Shown one piece after another: positions 3,202 through 34,793 of a stretch of 64,000 bases of DNA. A program made the position numbers and the translations under genes. The notes under the pieces are model-generated. The model worked only from the letters and a program-made list of their open reading frames with translations. It had not been told where the DNA came from and did not search any database. This stretch comes from Sphingopyxis jiangsuensis (GTDB lineage: Bacteria; Pseudomonadota; Alphaproteobacteria; Sphingomonadales; Sphingomonadaceae), in contig NZ_JAERPO010000003.1 in the NCBI RefSeq assembly GCF_016734905.1, positions 97,038 to 161,037 of the forward strand, in the 5' to 3' direction. Positions within the stretch are counted from its first letter, which is position 1; every line of letters begins with the position of its first letter.

Positions 3202-4743
3202 ATGCACCCTTCTGTCCACGCGCAAACGCATCCCGACAAACCGGCGGTGATCGTCGCGGAGACCGGCGAGACGCTGAGCTATGCCGAACTCGATGCCTTG
3301 TCGAACCGCGCCGCGCAGCTGTTTCGCGCGCGGGGGCTGGGGCATGAGGATGTCGTTGCCTTCATGCTCGACAACACGCCGCGCTATTACGGACTGACCT
3401 GGGGCGCGCAGCGCGCGGGGCTGCGCTATGTCTGCATCTCGTCACGGCTGACGCAGGACGAGACCGACTATATCCTCGAAAATTCGGGGGCAAAGCTGCT
3501 CGTCGTATCGGCGAGCCTCGCGCCCGCGGCGCTCGAACTGGAGACGACGATCGCGCGCTTCTCGATGGGAGGGGAGATTGCGGGCTGGCCGGCGATCGAG
3601 GAGGCGCTTGCCGCAATGCCTTCCGAGCGGATCGCCGACGAACGCGCCGGAGTCGACATGCTCTATTCGTCGGGGACGACGGGGCGGCCCAAGGGGGTCA
3701 AGGTTCCCTTGCCCGAGGAGCGCGCAATCGATGCGCCCAACAGCCTCGTCATGCTGGCGGCGGCGGCGTTTGGCATCGGTCCCGACAGCATCTATCTGTC
3801 GCCCGCGCCGCTCTATCATGCCGCGCCGCTGCGCTGGTCGATGACGATCCACCGGCTCGGCGGGACGGTCGTGCTGATGAAGAAATTCGACCCCGAAGGC
3901 GCGCTTGCCGCGATCGAGACCTATCGCTGCAACAGCGCGCAGTTCGTGCCGACCCATTTCGTGCGGATGCTCAAGCTGCCCGAAGCGGTGCGCGCGAAAT
4001 ATGACGTGTCGTCGATGAAGGGCGCAATCCACGCGGCCGCGCCGTGTCCGGTGCCGGTCAAGCAGGCGATGATCGACTGGTGGGGTCCGGTGCTGCTCGA
4101 ATATTATGCGGGATCGGAAGGCAATGGCATGACCTTCGCATCGAGCGCCGACTGGCTCGCGCACAAGGGGACCGTCGGGCGTCCGCTCAACGGCGCGGTG
4201 CATATCATGGCCGAGGACAAGGAAAGCGAGCTGCCTGCCGGTGAGGAGGGCATCGTCTTTTTCGAAAGCGAGAATGTTTTCGAGTATCACGACGATCCCG
4301 AAAAGACGGCGGCGAGCCGCAACAGCCGCGGCTGGACGACGCTCGGCGATGTCGGAAAGGTCGACGCCGACGGGTTCCTCTACCTCACCGACCGCAAGAG
4401 CTTCATGATCATTTCGGGCGGGGTGAACATTTATCCCCAGGAGATTGAGAATCATCTGGTGACGCACCCGAAGGTCGCCGACGTTGCGGTCGTCGGCGGC
4501 CCGCACGAGGAGATGGGCGAGGAAGTGATCGCCGTCATCCAGCTCTCGGACATGGCCGACGCGACCGACGCCTTTCGCGACGAACTGGTCGCCTTTGCGC
4601 GCCAGAAGCTGTCGGGGATCAAAATCCCGCGCCGGATCGATTTCGTCGAAGCCCTGCCGCGGCATGACACGGGCAAGCTCTACAAGCGCCTGCTCCGCGA
4701 CAAATATTGGGAGAAGGCGAAGGCCGAAGGCGTAAGCGCGTGA
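3202..4743 (+). CDS. Acyl-CoA synthetase (AMP-binding family)
   Basis: A 513-residue adenylate-forming CoA ligase. The AMP-binding motif YSSGTTGRPKG is at residues 155-165, followed by a YYAGSEGNG acyl-binding segment, the TLGDVGKVDADGFLYLTDR hinge and the catalytic-lysine region HDTGKLYKRLLRD near the C-terminus. It starts a tight three-gene operon: its TGA overlaps the GTG of the next gene, which in turn overlaps a crotonase. That context suggests activation of an acid that is then hydrated or isomerised in a beta-oxidation-like pathway. It is only distantly related to the divergent ligase at 1526-3055. Confidence 0.92.
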   Translation: MHPSVHAQTHPDKPAVIVAETGETLSYAELDALSNRAAQLFRARGLGHEDVVAFMLDNTPRYYGLTWGAQRAGLRYVCISSRLTQDETDYILENSGAKLLVVSASLAPAALELETTIARFSMGGEIAGWPAIEEALAAMPSERIADERAGVDMLYSSGTTGRPKGVKVPLPEERAIDAPNSLVMLAAAAFGIGPDSIYLSPAPLYHAAPLRWSMTIHRLGGTVVLMKKFDPEGALAAIETYRCNSAQFVPTHFVRMLKLPEAVRAKYDVSSMKGAIHAAAPCPVPVKQAMIDWWGPVLLEYYAGSEGNGMTFASSADWLAHKGTVGRPLNGAVHIMAEDKESELPAGEEGIVFFESENVFEYHDDPEKTAASRNSRGWTTLGDVGKVDADGFLYLTDRKSFMIISGGVNIYPQEIENHLVTHPKVADVAVVGGPHEEMGEEVIAVIQLSDMADATDAFRDELVAFARQKLSGIKIPRRIDFVEALPRHDTGKLYKRLLRDKYWEKAKAEGVSA

Positions 4744-31268: not shown

Positions 31269-31287
31269 AATAACCATATAGGTTATT
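31269..31287. promoter_or_regulatory. AT-rich palindrome upstream of the GTA insertion point
   Basis: AATAACC and GGTTATT are perfect 7-base inverted arms around ATATA, in a local AT-rich stretch with a TTGACA hexamer at 31293-31298. It looks like a dimeric regulator's site. Before the transposon inserted, this region stood about 90-100 bases upstream of the GTA small-terminase start. Confidence 0.45.
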
Positions 31288-31316
31288 TTCTATTGACATC
31301 GTAACGCTGATATGGC

Positions 31317-31324
31317 ACAAGTGT
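31317..31324. repeat. Left 8-bp target-site duplication (ACAAGTGT)
   Basis: ACAAGTGT directly abuts the left terminal repeat and is repeated at 34712-34719 directly after the right terminal repeat. Eight bases is the duplication length of IS1595-family elements. Confidence 0.9.
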
Positions 31325-31348
31325 GGCGTATATGTAGTTTACAAACCC
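31325..31348. repeat. Left terminal inverted repeat of the IS1595-type element
   Basis: 24 bases starting GGCGTATATGTAG and ending ACAAACCC, the exact reverse complement of 34688-34711. Confidence 0.93.
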
Positions 31349-31391
31349 AACCGGATCGGCTATAGAATGTGCATCAACGGAGCACATCACC

Positions 31392-32345
31392 ATGTCGGTT
31401 CTTTCTTCCCCTTATTTCCACGACGAAGCCAAGGCTTTCGAGCATCTGGAAAGCATCGTTTGGGCTGGCGGCGTAGTCTGCCCGCATTGCGGTGTTGTGG
31501 GCGGTCGCGTCTATGACCTGTCAGGTGTCCGCTCGAAGCCGAGCAAGAAGAACCCTGAGGGCGTCGTCCGTCACGGCCTGAAAAAATGTGGCGAGTGCCG
31601 CAAGCAGTTCACCGTCAAGGTCGGCACTGTTTTCGAGCACGCCCGTATGCCGCTCCACAAGATGCTACAGGCCGTTCACCTGATCGCGTCGAGCAAGAAG
31701 GGTATCAGCGCCCACCAGCTCGCCCGCGTTCTGGAGGTCCAGTATAAGACCGCATGGTTCCTCGCCCACCGTATCCGCGAAGCCATGCGCTCGGGCGATC
31801 TGGCTACTCCGTTCGGTTCGGGCGGTGGCGCCGTGGAGGTCGATGAAACCTATTTCGGCGTCAAGTCGGGCCGTCGCGGTGCGAAGGCTGGCACGGCTCA
31901 CAAGTTCGGCGTTCTGGCGCTCGTGGACCGCGACAGCGGCACCATGCGTTCGTTCACCTTCGACAAGTTCCGCGCCGACGAGGTTCACCCCATCGTCCTG
32001 AATAACATCGCCCGCGAAGCCCGTTTGATGACCGACGAAGCGAAGATGTATAAGAAGATTGGCCGCGACTTTGCCGAGCATGGCACGACCCTCCACGGCG
32101 CTCGCCAGTATGTCGATTACAGCGACCGCACCATTCACACGAACACCGTTGAAGGCGCGTTCTCGATTTTCAAGCGCGGCATGAAGGGCGTTTATCAGCA
32201 CTGTGGCGAGCAGCATTTGCACCGCTACCTTGCCGAGTTTGAGTTCCGCTACAACACGCGCGAAGCGAACGGCATTGATGATCGCGGTCGGGCTGTCGAA
32301 GCGGTGCGGGGCATCGTTGGCAAGCGCCTGACATACGCATCGTAG
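31392..32345 (+). CDS. IS1595-family transposase
   Basis: A 317-residue transposase. An N-terminal zinc ribbon has cysteines at residues 30, 33, 66 and 69. The DDE-type catalytic core is recognised by VEVDETYFG (Asp151), LMTDEAKMY (Asp215) and HTNTVEGAFSIFKRG (Asn251, Glu254), the DDN/E arrangement of the IS1595 group, and ends with the EFEFRYNTRE block. Length is normal and no frameshift is present. Start ATG at 31392. It moves the element that also carries the passenger genes downstream. Confidence 0.95.
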   Translation: MSVLSSPYFHDEAKAFEHLESIVWAGGVVCPHCGVVGGRVYDLSGVRSKPSKKNPEGVVRHGLKKCGECRKQFTVKVGTVFEHARMPLHKMLQAVHLIASSKKGISAHQLARVLEVQYKTAWFLAHRIREAMRSGDLATPFGSGGGAVEVDETYFGVKSGRRGAKAGTAHKFGVLALVDRDSGTMRSFTFDKFRADEVHPIVLNNIAREARLMTDEAKMYKKIGRDFAEHGTTLHGARQYVDYSDRTIHTNTVEGAFSIFKRGMKGVYQHCGEQHLHRYLAEFEFRYNTREANGIDDRGRAVEAVRGIVGKRLTYAS

Positions 32346-32584
32346 ATTCTTTCCAAAAGTTTGATGGAAAGCGCGCGTGAAAATGCGCTGAAATCGTCGG
32401 CGAATCGTTCACGGAAGCGTTCGGTGAACGTCTCACGTCAATGGACAATGAAGCGACGATGGCTTTGACAACGAATCAAAGCGGTCATCTATCAACAGGA
32501 TTGACGTGATTTGTTTACGCGTATCGCGTAAATCGGCGATGGAAGTGAGAACATCCCGCCAAGGTATCTGCCTTCCGCTATGCG
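32346..32584. other. Non-coding stretch inside the transposon
   Basis: After the transposase stop there are about 240 bases with no credible gene. The sequence is AT-richer than the host and contains a run of imperfect GAACG/CGTTC-like repeats (around 32385-32435). It leads to the tRNA-like sequence at 32585. Confidence 0.5.
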
Positions 32585-32658
32585 CGCCCTCGGCTGGACT
32601 CGAACCAGCAGCCGGGGACCTACGAAGAACCTGCTCTATCCAGTTGAGCTACGAGGGC
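32585..32658 (-). tRNA. Degenerate tRNA-like sequence (canonical spacing, mispaired anticodon stem)
   Basis: On the minus strand the acceptor stem GCCCTCG/CGAGGGC, D arm GCTC/GAGC and T arm GCTGG/CCAGC around TTCGAGT are perfect and the spacing is exactly that of a tRNA. The anticodon stem (GGTTC against GTCCC) has two mismatches, and the loop TTCGTAG would give anticodon CGU. No CCA is encoded. It resembles arginine-type tRNAs overall. It may be a decaying gene or a tRNA mimic; charging and function are doubtful. Confidence 0.55.
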
Positions 32659-32665
32659 CACACAG

Positions 32666-32700
32666 CAAAAAACGCCGGGAGTTAGCGCTCCCGGCGTTTT
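32666..32700. terminator. Bidirectional Rho-independent terminator
   Basis: A perfect 11-bp stem (AACGCCGGGAG with CTCCCGGCGTT) around a short loop, flanked by A-runs on the left and T-runs on the right, so it can stop transcription both ways. It ends the winged-helix gene on the minus strand. Confidence 0.88.
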
Positions 32701-32705
32701 CAATG

Positions 32706-33101
32706 TTAGCTTACGGCGCGAAGCCCCCCAACGTCACTAAAAGGGTTTGGGCGCGGCGCAAACTTCTTCTCGTAGTAGCGTTCGCCCTCGTAGACGAGCG
32801 CACCGTCCCCTTTGAGGCGGGACAGAATAGACCCCACGGTATCCTTTGCTACCGTCGGGACTTGCGCCCTGATGGCGGCATCAACCTCAGCGGTAGTCGC
32901 ACCACTCTCGCCAGCCGCCTTCATATAATCTAGGACGAGAGGCTTAATGCTCGGCGAGCGCTGCCTAACGGGTTTTGCGGGGGCGTCATCGCCTAGCAGT
33001 TCGATCAGCAACTTCTCCTGGATGCGAAGTTCGTCGATCTGCTTGCGAACGGCTTCTAGCTTCGCTTTGATTTTCATTTGTTGCTCTTTCGCGGTTGCCA
33101 T
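32706..33101 (-). CDS. Passenger winged-helix-like protein
   Basis: A 131-residue protein. Residues 1-45 form a lysine- and glutamate-rich coiled coil (MATAKEQQMKIKAKLEAV and following). Residues about 52-115 look like a winged helix (PLVLDYMKAAGESGATTAEV, then VGSILSRLKGDGALVYEGERYY). AAAGGA lies 8 bases before the ATG. The gene follows the tRNA-Leu-like sequence by 25 bases on the same strand and ends at a strong terminator, so the two are likely co-transcribed. It may be a small DNA-binding protein of the element; the function is unknown. Confidence 0.75.
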   Translation of the reverse strand: MATAKEQQMKIKAKLEAVRKQIDELRIQEKLLIELLGDDAPAKPVRQRSPSIKPLVLDYMKAAGESGATTAEVDAAIRAQVPTVAKDTVGSILSRLKGDGALVYEGERYYEKKFAPRPNPFSDVGGLRAVS

Positions 33102-33126
33102 GTCAGATTCCTTTGAAAGTGAGACT

Positions 33127-33214
33127 TGGTGCCCGCAGGGGGACTCGAACCCCCACATCCCGCCAAGGATTTCGGTTTTAAAGACCGCTGCGTCTACCAT
33201 TCCGCCATGCGGGC
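33127..33214 (-). tRNA. tRNA-Leu-like gene with UUA anticodon (candidate ochre suppressor)
   Basis: An 88-base class II tRNA with encoded CCA and discriminator A. The acceptor stem GCCCGCA/TGCGGGC and T stem GGGGG/CCCCC are perfect; the D arm GCG/CGC holds GG; the long variable arm pairs ATCC with GGAT. The anticodon stem GCGGT/ACCGA (one mismatch at its base) encloses CTTTAAA, so the anticodon reads UUA, which pairs with the UAA stop codon. In ordinary bacterial tRNA-Leu(UAA) the loop would be CTTAAAA or TTTAAAA. Whether it is charged and active is unproven. Confidence 0.75.
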
Positions 33215-33292
33215 ACAGCATCTTGATAGCGCCTGATTGATAGCTGTGAAAGTAGACGAATCAAATGCAGGACGGAAGGAGTGAAAATTGCG

Positions 33293-33439
33293 ATGAGTCG
33301 AAAGGAAACGACGTCTCAGCTTGAAAAATTCAAGGAAGCTGCGCGTGATTTGGAAACCGACGACGACCCTGAACGCTTTGACGAGCGCCTAGGACGAATG
33401 GTCAAGCAAAAGCCGACAAAGAAGGGCAAGGCCGACTAA
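33293..33439 (+). CDS. Small charged passenger protein
   Basis: A 48-residue, highly charged protein (starts MSRKETTSQLEKFKEAARDL, then an acidic DDDPERFDERLGRM patch and a basic tail). GGAG lies about 10 bases before the ATG. Similar small proteins are common in alphaproteobacterial genomes without known function. It is convergent with the putative toxin gene, overlapping it by four bases at the stops. It is shorter than usual annotation limits but has a plausible start and composition. Confidence 0.6.
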   Translation: MSRKETTSQLEKFKEAARDLETDDDPERFDERLGRMVKQKPTKKGKAD

Positions 33440-33972
33440 TCCACTGGATAAATCTCGTGCTTAGGGTCATACCATAGGACGTGAAACTCGCCGACGATCC
33501 GGAATCCCCACAGGCGAGGCAGGTTGCCAAGGCGAAACCGATAGATTGTGTCGGCGCTGTGCTTCAGTTCGACTAGGCGGTATTGGGCTTCTTCGGTGAT
33601 GCTTGCCACCTCCATAGGGTGGTGCATCCTGTGGCCGGTGTCGCTAGTTTGCGCCTCGACCTCGTGCCAGCGCAATTTGGCAAATTCACTTAGCTTGGGG
33701 AGGATTGTTTCATTCCAGCATTCGTCGGTCCATGCTCGCGGCGTCCCTGAATCCCACGCTCCTTCGATATCTGGACTTTCGCAACTCCACGTTACCGTTA
33801 GGTTGTAAATGGAGCCTGGATTGACCCCCACACGGACTGCCTTGGGACGATCTTTAGCATATTCAGAGCGCACCTCATGGTCTCTCGGCTCCGCTCTCAG
33901 GCGAGCCGATTTTAGCTCCTGTTGTGCCAGCTTTTTATGCTCGCGCGCGAGCCTTGCCTCGCGCTTGGTCAT
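33436..33972 (-). CDS. Putative toxin linked to a Panacea-domain antitoxin
   Basis: A 178-residue protein of no family I can name with certainty. The N-terminus is a basic helix (KREARLAREHKKLAQQELK). The C-terminal third has the pattern YRFRLGNLPRLWGFRIVGEFHVLWYDPKHEIYP, like small toxin or nuclease-like modules that end in a WxDPxH motif. It begins five bases after the stop of the antitoxin gene on the same strand, the usual arrangement of PanA-PanT pairs. A toxin role is therefore inferred from partnership, not from catalytic residues. Confidence 0.6.
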   Translation of the reverse strand: MTKREARLAREHKKLAQQELKSARLRAEPRDHEVRSEYAKDRPKAVRVGVNPGSIYNLTVTWSCESPDIEGAWDSGTPRAWTDECWNETILPKLSEFAKLRWHEVEAQTSDTGHRMHHPMEVASITEEAQYRLVELKHSADTIYRFRLGNLPRLWGFRIVGEFHVLWYDPKHEIYPVD

Positions 33973-33977
33973 CAGCG

Positions 33978-34430
33978 TCAGGCTACTACGATTTCGTCCG
34001 ACGCAATGTCATTAGGCCCCAACGCCGAATAATATTCCATTAGCGCGTAAGGCGTAATTTCAGTGTTCTGCGCTTTCGCGTAAGCGTCTTTCCACGGGTC
34101 CTCCATGTGCGTAAGGTCGCTCAACCATTGAGCATCCTTATCGCCATAAAATCCCAGAATAAGATCAACCGTTTCGCGTTGGGCAGGGTTTAATCTATCG
34201 GCATCACCGCCGCTGATTGCGGACACGCGAAAGCGTCCCTGCGTCGCCACCCACAGATCACGGACAACAGGGCCGTTTTTCCACGCCTCAATGCGCTCCG
34301 GAAAGAGCACATCATCGTCCCAAACAATAGACCATGCCTGACTGTAGTATACCAGCTTTTGAAGCTTCATCGTGGTCATGGGGCCGTGCGCGGCGAGAAT
34401 ATACTGCGCCACATCGAATACAGACGGCAT
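33978..34430 (-). CDS. Panacea-domain (SocA/DUF4065-like) antitoxin
   Basis: A 150-residue protein with the Panacea domain found in SocA of Caulobacter and in PanA antitoxins. Diagnostic segments are VFDVAQYILAAHGPMTTMKLQKLVYYSQAW, quoted here in shortened form as TTMKLQKLVYYSQAW, and ERIEAWKNGPVVRDLW. These domains neutralise diverse toxins by direct binding. I set the start at the ATG at 34430, where GGAAGGGA lies 8-9 bases upstream and the domain begins immediately. It is the first gene of a two-gene operon with the putative toxin. Confidence 0.85.
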   Translation of the reverse strand: MPSVFDVAQYILAAHGPMTTMKLQKLVYYSQAWSIVWDDDVLFPERIEAWKNGPVVRDLWVATQGRFRVSAISGGDADRLNPAQRETVDLILGFYGDKDAQWLSDLTHMEDPWKDAYAKAQNTEITPYALMEYYSALGPNDIASDEIVVA

Positions 34431-34559
34431 ACCAATATCCCTTCCTTGGTGGCGGCATACATAGTTTGTTCTCACCAATCCGTAAAGACGGACGAAATTT
34501 TGAGACTCCAACATCACCACCCCCTTTCCTACATTCCCGCGCCATGCGACCGTGAGGGG

Positions 34560-34685
34560 ATGAAGCGCGAACCAAAATGGAAAACCCGAGCCTTGGCGAT
34601 TGAGTTCTGGCTTGCCGCTGCCTTTGTCGCCGGATCATTCGTTGCGGGGCTTGTTTCTGCGGTTCGTTACCTGATCGGCGGGTGA
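34560..34685 (+). CDS. Possible 41-residue membrane protein at the transposon end
   Basis: A short frame (starts MKREPKWKTRALAIEFWL) with a basic N-terminus and one strong membrane helix (about residues 14-36, rich in Ala, Val and Phe). It ends three bases before the right terminal repeat. GAGGGG is immediately before the ATG, too close for ideal initiation. It may be a real tiny gene driven by the AT-rich segment that contains CCCTTTCCTACATT, or chance. Confidence 0.35.
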   Translation: MKREPKWKTRALAIEFWLAAAFVAGSFVAGLVSAVRYLIGG

Positions 34686-34687
34686 GC

Positions 34688-34711
34688 GGGTTTGTAAACT
34701 ACATATACGCC
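34688..34711. repeat. Right terminal inverted repeat of the IS1595-type element
   Basis: 24 bases from GGGTTTGTAAAC to TATACGCC, the exact reverse complement of the left repeat at 31325-31348. Confidence 0.93.
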
Positions 34712-34719
34712 ACAAGTGT
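34712..34719. repeat. Right 8-bp target-site duplication (ACAAGTGT)
   Basis: Identical to 31317-31324, immediately outside the right terminal repeat. Confidence 0.9.
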
Positions 34720-34793
34720 CACATCATGAAGAATTGCGATTCGGGCCGGCGCCTTTCGGGGTGCGCGGCCCGATTGCTTTTGGAGGGCGGGCG

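Follow-up and report, generated by a model that had tools for sequence, protein, structure and literature searches.

A leucine-bodied tRNA with a stop anticodon, linked to a winged-helix gene on an IS1595 transposon of Sphingopyxis, suggests a switchable code-misreading system

In the tRNA-ProX/ProRSx systems of Streptomyces and Kitasatospora (Vargas-Rodriguez 2021, Schuntermann 2023), the body of one amino acid's tRNA carries the anticodons of others. As set out in PMC10365949, tRNA-ProX is a mistranslating bacterial tRNA family that is toxic when expressed in E. coli and has a synthetase of its own as partner; it joins a proline body to Ala, Asn or Thr anticodons beside an adjacent synthetase variant, and two members, tRNA-ProN and -ProA, conferred carbenicillin resistance. 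Ochre suppressors from the laboratory and from phages have a UUA anticodon complementary to UAA on a leucine-type body. Type I toxin-antitoxin systems, also at home on mobile elements, pair an effector transcript with a short complementary RNA; the toxin is a peptide and the antisense RNA acts on its mRNA. In CreTA, a translation-acting RNA toxin, CreT, is reported to sequester tRNA and to be repressed by CreA, an RNA that partly matches the toxin locus and guides Cascade.

We analyzed a window of 64,000 nt (C3:97038-161037) in the 3.13 Mb genome of Sphingopyxis jiangsuensis, in which a preliminary description, made from the sequence alone, had proposed a transposon-borne ochre-suppressor tRNA. 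Our results support that interpretation in part. Like tRNA-ProX, the tRNA combines one body with foreign anticodons, but the module to which it belongs has a leucine body with Stop, Gly or Pro anticodons, a winged-helix (wHTH) gene and an antisense-like tRNA copy, and it travels on transposons and viral contigs. We found neither a proline body nor an adjacent ProRS variant; the ORFs of the element are a transposase, the wHTH gene, a Panacea pair and small ORFs. Unlike known ochre suppressors, the tRNA sits in a conserved, linked module with compensatory changes whose sister tRNAs have anticodons for sense codons, and no recoded genes were found in the window element. A short copy that is complementary to the tRNA and co-varies with it would recall type I systems if it were transcribed in the antisense sense, but the putative effector is a tRNA with a wHTH gene; promoter scores at the copy are weak, and no small hydrophobic peptide is tied to it, the 41-aa hydrophobic ORF at 34560-34685 lying elsewhere in the element. 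The window also differs from CreTA in that the putative effector is itself a tRNA, and neither a Cas protein nor a CRISPR repeat was seen at the module. No such module appeared in the titles and abstract openings that were searched, a set that lacks most subscription papers. The non-cognate anticodon, the neighboring gene for a DNA-binding protein and the antisense-like copy suggest a switchable code-misreading system that is so far undescribed.

The tRNA and its relatives

ARAGORN called a tRNA-Stop with anticodon tta over exactly 33127-33214 on the minus strand and no normal tRNA-Leu(UAA) there, and the Rfam tRNA model matched the same span with 59.3 bits (E 2.8e-10, gathering score 29). Together with the sequence itself, these calls bear out the class II form, encoded CCA, discriminator A, CTTTAAA loop and UUA anticodon that had been described. 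The tRNA has a cloverleaf, a long and pairable variable arm, A73 and a leucine-type D arm, features from which we predict leucine identity, and it presents UUA within a 7-nt loop (CUUUAAA) as an ochre suppressor does. Anticodon-stem pair 27-43 is G-A. That the tRNA is well folded with a paired variable arm, as the preliminary description had it, held up in comparison and not in isolation: single-strand folding was not diagnostic (z -1.13, with 31 of 200 shuffles folding equally well), and the minimum-energy fold is an incomplete cloverleaf. Across 19 wHTH-linked tRNAs aligned with the window, however, cloverleaf pairing was kept in 96.8% of cells, and two-sided changes occurred in 12 of 23 stem pairs. 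None of 500 shuffles reached the pairing or covariation score of this alignment, and slid controls brought pairing down to 33-48%. The structure is therefore supported by comparative evidence rather than by folding energy. Covariation across the 19 relatives rules out a pseudogene, and because of the compensatory changes in the stems, the non-functional decoy that had been offered as an option is unlikely. The host tRNA-Leu(UAA) (L002) has the loop CUUAAAA, which is indeed one base away from that of the window tRNA; since the two are only 75% identical over the aligned part, we ruled out a recent point mutant of the host gene.

Relatives of the tRNA are found in Sphingomonadales, Rhodobacteraceae and Mesorhizobium, where IS1595 elements or viral contigs carry them and a wHTH gene usually lies on their 3′ side. 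A search pattern for leucine-bodied tRNAs with UUUAAA at loop positions 33-38 found 28 stretches (23 on genome contigs, 5 on viral ones), 27 of which ARAGORN called as tRNA-Stop(tta); L047 and L024 are one contig. A wHTH profile match lay within 1.5 kb at 19 of 27 UUA loci, the eight others being L030, L032, L036, L041, L044, L045, L050 and L053. Since UUA was imposed by the pattern, this set can speak for conserved stems but not for a conserved anticodon. A further UUA relative, 82% identical (G021), was found by DNA similarity with no anticodon constraint.

When genomes and viral contigs were searched with the wHTH protein only, so that the anticodon was free, we obtained 13 distinct loci, and at 7 of them (the window, L076, L077, L083, L084, L085 and L086) a class II leucine-bodied tRNA stood directly 5′ of the wHTH gene. 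The anticodons of these seven were UUA in four and Gly(ACC), Gly(UCC) and Pro(UGG) in one each, with no Leu anticodon among them; another Gly(UCC) module, L108, came through an anticodon pattern. All module tRNAs, including those with Gly and Pro anticodons, share the leucine D arm, A73 and a leucine-sized variable arm. The unit is thus a module of non-cognate tRNA-Leu and wHTH gene, and not merely an ochre suppressor: the window tRNA could in principle read UAA, as had been proposed, but with Gly and Pro anticodons among its sisters UAA suppression is not their common purpose. Weaker wHTH matches (L078, L079, L080, L082 and L208) had no tRNA. In L081 (G526), two near-identical tandem class II Ala(UGC) tRNAs (1892-1980 and 2140-2228) lie 3′ of a divergent wHTH gene.

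The same anticodons bear on the idea of a passenger suppressor that serves its carrier, the element or a prophage, by translating UAA codons in the carrier's own genes. UUA is present in 20 of the 25 wHTH-linked loci, most of them fetched by the UUA pattern, and this would fit; the Gly and Pro sisters do not. Nor do the element's own stops: the 21 complete wHTH ORFs end in TGA (16), TAG (3) or TAA (2) and share no extension, and ten transposase genes end in TAG (8) or TAA (2), with possible extensions of 0-81 codons and unrelated lengths. With neither a conserved UAA nor a conserved extension, we rejected readthrough of the element's own genes and regard a passenger suppressor as very unlikely.

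The wHTH-tRNA pair is rare. It occurred in 2 of 396 genomes of the order and 1 of 398 genomes of the phylum, and any wHTH match occurred in 7 of 385 genomes of the class, three of these also at the tRNA pattern; the three genome samples overlap. A leucine-bodied pattern with base 35 other than A gave 11 matches in 9 of 385 genomes, of which ARAGORN backed those in G526, G761, G745, G808 and the window and called no tRNA at four (L089, L092, L093 and L095). This pattern also hit 112 stretches in viral contigs. Eighty of them were taken further, and many proved to be phage-like tRNAs of varied anticodon that lack a wHTH gene. Many class II tRNAs there, of leucine or serine type, have an Asp, Asn, Gly, Gln, Trp or Pro anticodon but no wHTH (L098, L099, L104, L111, L118, L127, L129, L142, L148, L150, L155, L158 and others), so a non-cognate leucine-type tRNA alone is no proof of the module.

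The wHTH partner and the trimmed tRNA copy

The partner gene (32706-33101, minus strand) encodes a 131-aa coiled-coil and winged-helix protein behind the Shine-Dalgarno sequence AAAGGA, and it starts 25 nt 3′ of the tRNA. This spacing was 15-30 nt in 20 of 21 complete modules, the exception being L086, for which the script chose an earlier ATG at 4 nt. A 17-row alignment shows a family of about 130 aa with an N-terminal coiled coil followed by the winged helix. The class assignment is a prediction from an AlphaFold model (mean pLDDT 79.2), for which Foldseek returned generic winged helices only, the best of BlaI/MecI type at E 8.6e-3 and none at or below 1e-3. Scans with Pfam, NCBIfam, PHROGs and PADLOC assigned the protein to no family; a PDB profile search gave a best E of only 0.12, and tblastn with the window protein as single query found no match in plasmid and phage records. 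Upstream of the tRNA lies a putative promoter/operator region (33217-33270, minus strand), with TTGATT-16-TATCAA and a repeated CTATCAA that ends 8 nt before the tRNA. Half-sites of the form TTGAT(A/T) and (A/T)ATCAA precede the tRNA in six of nine sphingomonad-type modules (missing in L024, L046 and L048), and most Rhodobacteraceae modules share, by eye, a ACGCAAATTGC..TTGACT block. Such repeats may be where the wHTH protein represses its own operon.

Downstream of the wHTH gene, at 32541-32585 on the plus strand, we found three blocks complementary to the pre-tRNA. They correspond to the 5′ acceptor/D arm, the variable arm (32551-32564, 14 of 14 positions) and the 3′ flank, and skip the anticodon and T arms. 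When nine elements were searched for repeats, most had the variable arm of their tRNA again downstream of wHTH. Among 21 wHTH-linked modules with at least 800 nt downstream, 19 had such a copy, exact over 12-17 nt in 16 and inexact in 3 (L024, L035 and L040), and none was found in L031 and L085; the count excludes L027, L052 and L054, which are truncated, and L081 with its tandem tRNAs. As controls, the repeat appeared in 1 of 40 unlinked non-cognate tRNAs (L155, 33 nt away) and in 0 of 19 ordinary Leu tRNAs. Over 20 modules, copies had a mean identity of 0.86 to their own tRNA versus 0.67 to the tRNAs of other modules, a match equaled in none of 100,000 permutations. In 19 aligned copies the mean retention was 0.83 for the variable arm, 0.45 for the D arm and 0.11 for the T arm, and all 19 alignment scores exceeded those of their 20 shuffles, with the caveat that the best alignment for L028 lands on a second tRNA and not on the copy. 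Every well-aligned module dropped the T arm and 3′ acceptor and retained the variable arm and 3′ flank.

Partial tRNA copies beside a gene are the usual mark of islands that target tRNA genes, so the repeat could be the att footprint of site-specific integration, or a decayed tRNA duplicate. We consider this highly improbable. The copy is not a contiguous duplication of the tRNA 3′ end, precisely the T arm and 3′ acceptor are missing from it, and no integrase family was matched among the proteins scanned with Pfam, NCBIfam and PHROGs; in a decayed duplicate, moreover, the fastest-changing arm would not have kept its match to the module's tRNA.

Read on the opposite strand, the copy is antisense to the pre-tRNA, and we consider this polarity likely. 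Predicted duplexes were stronger with the module's own pre-tRNA than with permuted partners (0 of 100,000 permutations), although the own duplex ranked first in only 11 of 19 modules, the rest being beaten by close relatives, and the energies permit large bulges. On the antisense side, 7 of 9 sphingomonad-type elements have TTGACG (32501-32506, plus strand, in the window), a possible -35 of the antisense RNA, in a constant position ahead of the copy, with no conserved -10. In 6 of 7 Rhodobacteraceae/Mesorhizobium elements the copy is preceded by TTCACC, after which comes the complement of the tRNA 3′ end. The consensus promoter score on the antisense side was weak, 7.58 of 12 versus 7.14 for shuffled sequence; the sense side scored 6.37 versus 6.55. 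By eye, a G+C-rich hairpin flanked by T runs is visible at 32673-32696, where a terminator scan reported none; in the Rhodobacteraceae type, the T run of the hairpin favors the sense direction.

These signals matter for a reading in which the tRNA acts outside translation, as a leader or as a decoy for LeuRS, an anticodon nuclease or a processing enzyme, with the copy as a sense mini-RNA. The tRNA does lie within the 5′ leader of the wHTH gene, the polarity of the copy depends on weak promoter scores, and a PIN-domain protein is among the cargo of sister elements. However, a leader or a LeuRS decoy need not avoid Leu anticodons, so their absence from all seven loci of the anticodon-free search counts against it, and a sense mini-RNA is opposed by the hairpin just before the copy on the sense strand and by a promoter signal that does not rise above shuffles. 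We therefore judge this reading rather unlikely.

The stretch from the hairpin to the copy is occupied by a second tRNA-like gene, of class I (32584-32658, minus strand; ARAGORN Thr(cgt), Rfam tRNA 47.7 bits), with an imperfect anticodon stem. It is single copy in the host genome, with no other match at E<=0.001. Seven elements have such a gene at this position (the window, L028, L038, L043, L049, L051 and L077), with CGU, GGU or GCU anticodons and often imperfect anticodon stems.

The IS1595 element and its exchangeable cargo

IS1595 family elements consist of a transposase, inverted repeats and an 8-bp target duplication, and may bring passenger genes. The window element has this architecture, with a tRNA-based module in a swapped slot as its passenger. 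It is an intact 3.4-kb element (31325-34711) flanked by 8-bp copies of ACAAGTGT (31317-31324 and 34712-34719). Its terminal inverted repeats (31325-31348, plus strand, and 34688-34711, minus strand) consist of GG and 22 inner bases that are identical at both ends (22 of 22). The 317-aa transposase (31392-32345, plus strand) is of the IS1595 (ISXO2-like) family, a DDE enzyme with a zinc ribbon that matches Pfam PF12762 (1.6e-33) and PF12760 (6.1e-11) and the NCBIfam IS1595 model NF033547 (1.5e-55, 188 bits). The preliminary description was thus right to place the tRNA inside an IS1595-type element, and right to expect similar tRNAs near other such transposases: an IS1595 transposase match lay within 6 kb at 17 of 25 wHTH-linked loci, and paired element ends were found at 10 of 16 testable loci (18 tried).

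In the window's genus, a transposase at least 93% identical is present in 10 of 80 genomes, and only the window and G021 carry the tRNA. The other eight elements (L056, L057, L058, L060, L061, L062, L063 and L064) fill the slot between the transposase and a small ORF with DUF3800 (3), a PIN protein and partner (1), DUF5343 (1) or unassigned genes (3). Absence from all related elements had been named as evidence against the preliminary description; the tRNA is present in relatives, yet these eight same-genus copies hold other cargo and no tRNA. The only Rfam match in the sister elements was a chrB-b RNA in L060 (3818-3865); by eye, L058 has a tRNA-like stretch. The small ORF at the slot (48 aa, 33293-33439, plus strand) is conserved, divergent from the tRNA and also present in elements with other cargo, and it has no Pfam, NCBIfam or PHROGs family; a hydrophobic 41-aa ORF (34560-34685, plus strand) is conserved near the right end. 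The window element has a second cargo (33436-34520, minus strand) that is likely a toxin-antitoxin pair, namely a SocA/Panacea-domain antitoxin-like gene (33978-34520; Pfam PF13274 8e-15, phrog_1281 3e-31) and its 178-aa partner (33436-33972; weak matches to NsnC, PADLOC 2.6e-5, and phrog_8366). Both are also carried, about 85% identical, by the viral contig L051.

The IS1595 copies of the genus share an insertion target, with GATATGGCACAAGTGT at the left flank and/or ATCAAGAATTGCGA at the right (window 31286-31324 and 34712-34760; L024, L057, L058, L060 and L064). The window element is inserted immediately 5′ of a gene that resembles a terminase small subunit (phrog_4044); packaging-like genes come after this gene, and together they are perhaps a gene transfer agent (GTA). 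In the 4.4-kb contig L051, the GTA-side target sequence occurs, inverted, on both element flanks (300-330 and 4008-4045), possibly an assembly effect.

The slot cargo, comprising PIN, DUF3800, DUF5343 and Panacea proteins, looks like toxin-antitoxin or defense genes. This bears on a further reading, that regulated mistranslation is an adaptive trait providing heterogeneity or tolerance to stress and drugs, as proposed for Streptomyces tRNA-ProX. The shared logic of one amino acid's body with the anticodons of others would fit such a trait, as would the carbenicillin resistance from tRNA-ProN and -ProA (PMC10365949). The module, however, pairs its tRNA with no synthetase but with a repressor-like gene plus an antisense-like copy, and the other cargo of the slot would point to toxins or defense. 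An adaptive trait is in our estimation unlikely.

A proposed regulated mistranslation module

A repressor-like partner, an antisense-like copy and toxin-antitoxin- or defense-like slot cargo together favor an effector that is kept silent and would be used for addiction or defense. We give about an even chance to a mobile, repressible, toxin-antitoxin-like mistranslation module. Bacterial LeuRS does not read the anticodon, and because of this a leucine body should be charged with leucine whatever its anticodon, placing leucine at non-leucine codons. In the context of human tRNAs, a review (PMC11415595) describes LeuRS as relying on the acceptor stem. Leucine would then be inserted at UAA stops by the window tRNA, or at Gly and Pro codons by those of the sister modules. 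In a rough set of window ORFs TAA is the stop in 5 of 33, so UAA readthrough would affect a minority of genes.

We propose that the tRNA-wHTH operon would be shut by its own wHTH protein at the repeats 5′ of the tRNA, while a short RNA expressed from the opposite strand of the trimmed copy would pair with the pre-tRNA at its variable arm and 3′ flank. Such an RNA would avoid the T arm common to host tRNAs and block maturation of the module's tRNA. If repression were lost through loss of the element, phage attack or stress, mature tRNA would appear and proteins would be corrupted, with toxicity as the presumed outcome. That the module stands for a new class of mobile toxin-antitoxin or phage-defense system, with a leucine-misinserting tRNA aimed at stop or sense codons according to lineage, a tripartite antisense RNA that reads the variable arm, a wHTH repressor and a place in swappable IS1595 cargo, is a more tentative proposal, which we would sooner doubt than accept.

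If true, misreading of the genetic code would be a weapon of bacterial mobile elements, with a tRNA silenced by antisense RNA, and tRNA would join the toxin-antitoxin world as a toxin. This would explain the odd "suppressor" tRNA calls that recur in genomes and would make deliberate mistranslation testable beyond Streptomyces. For alphaproteobacteria, the tRNAs would also offer nonsense and missense suppressors that insert leucine and are ready for use, and the pairs of variable arm and antisense RNA, if our reading is right, would be a natural set of orthogonal RNA pairs.
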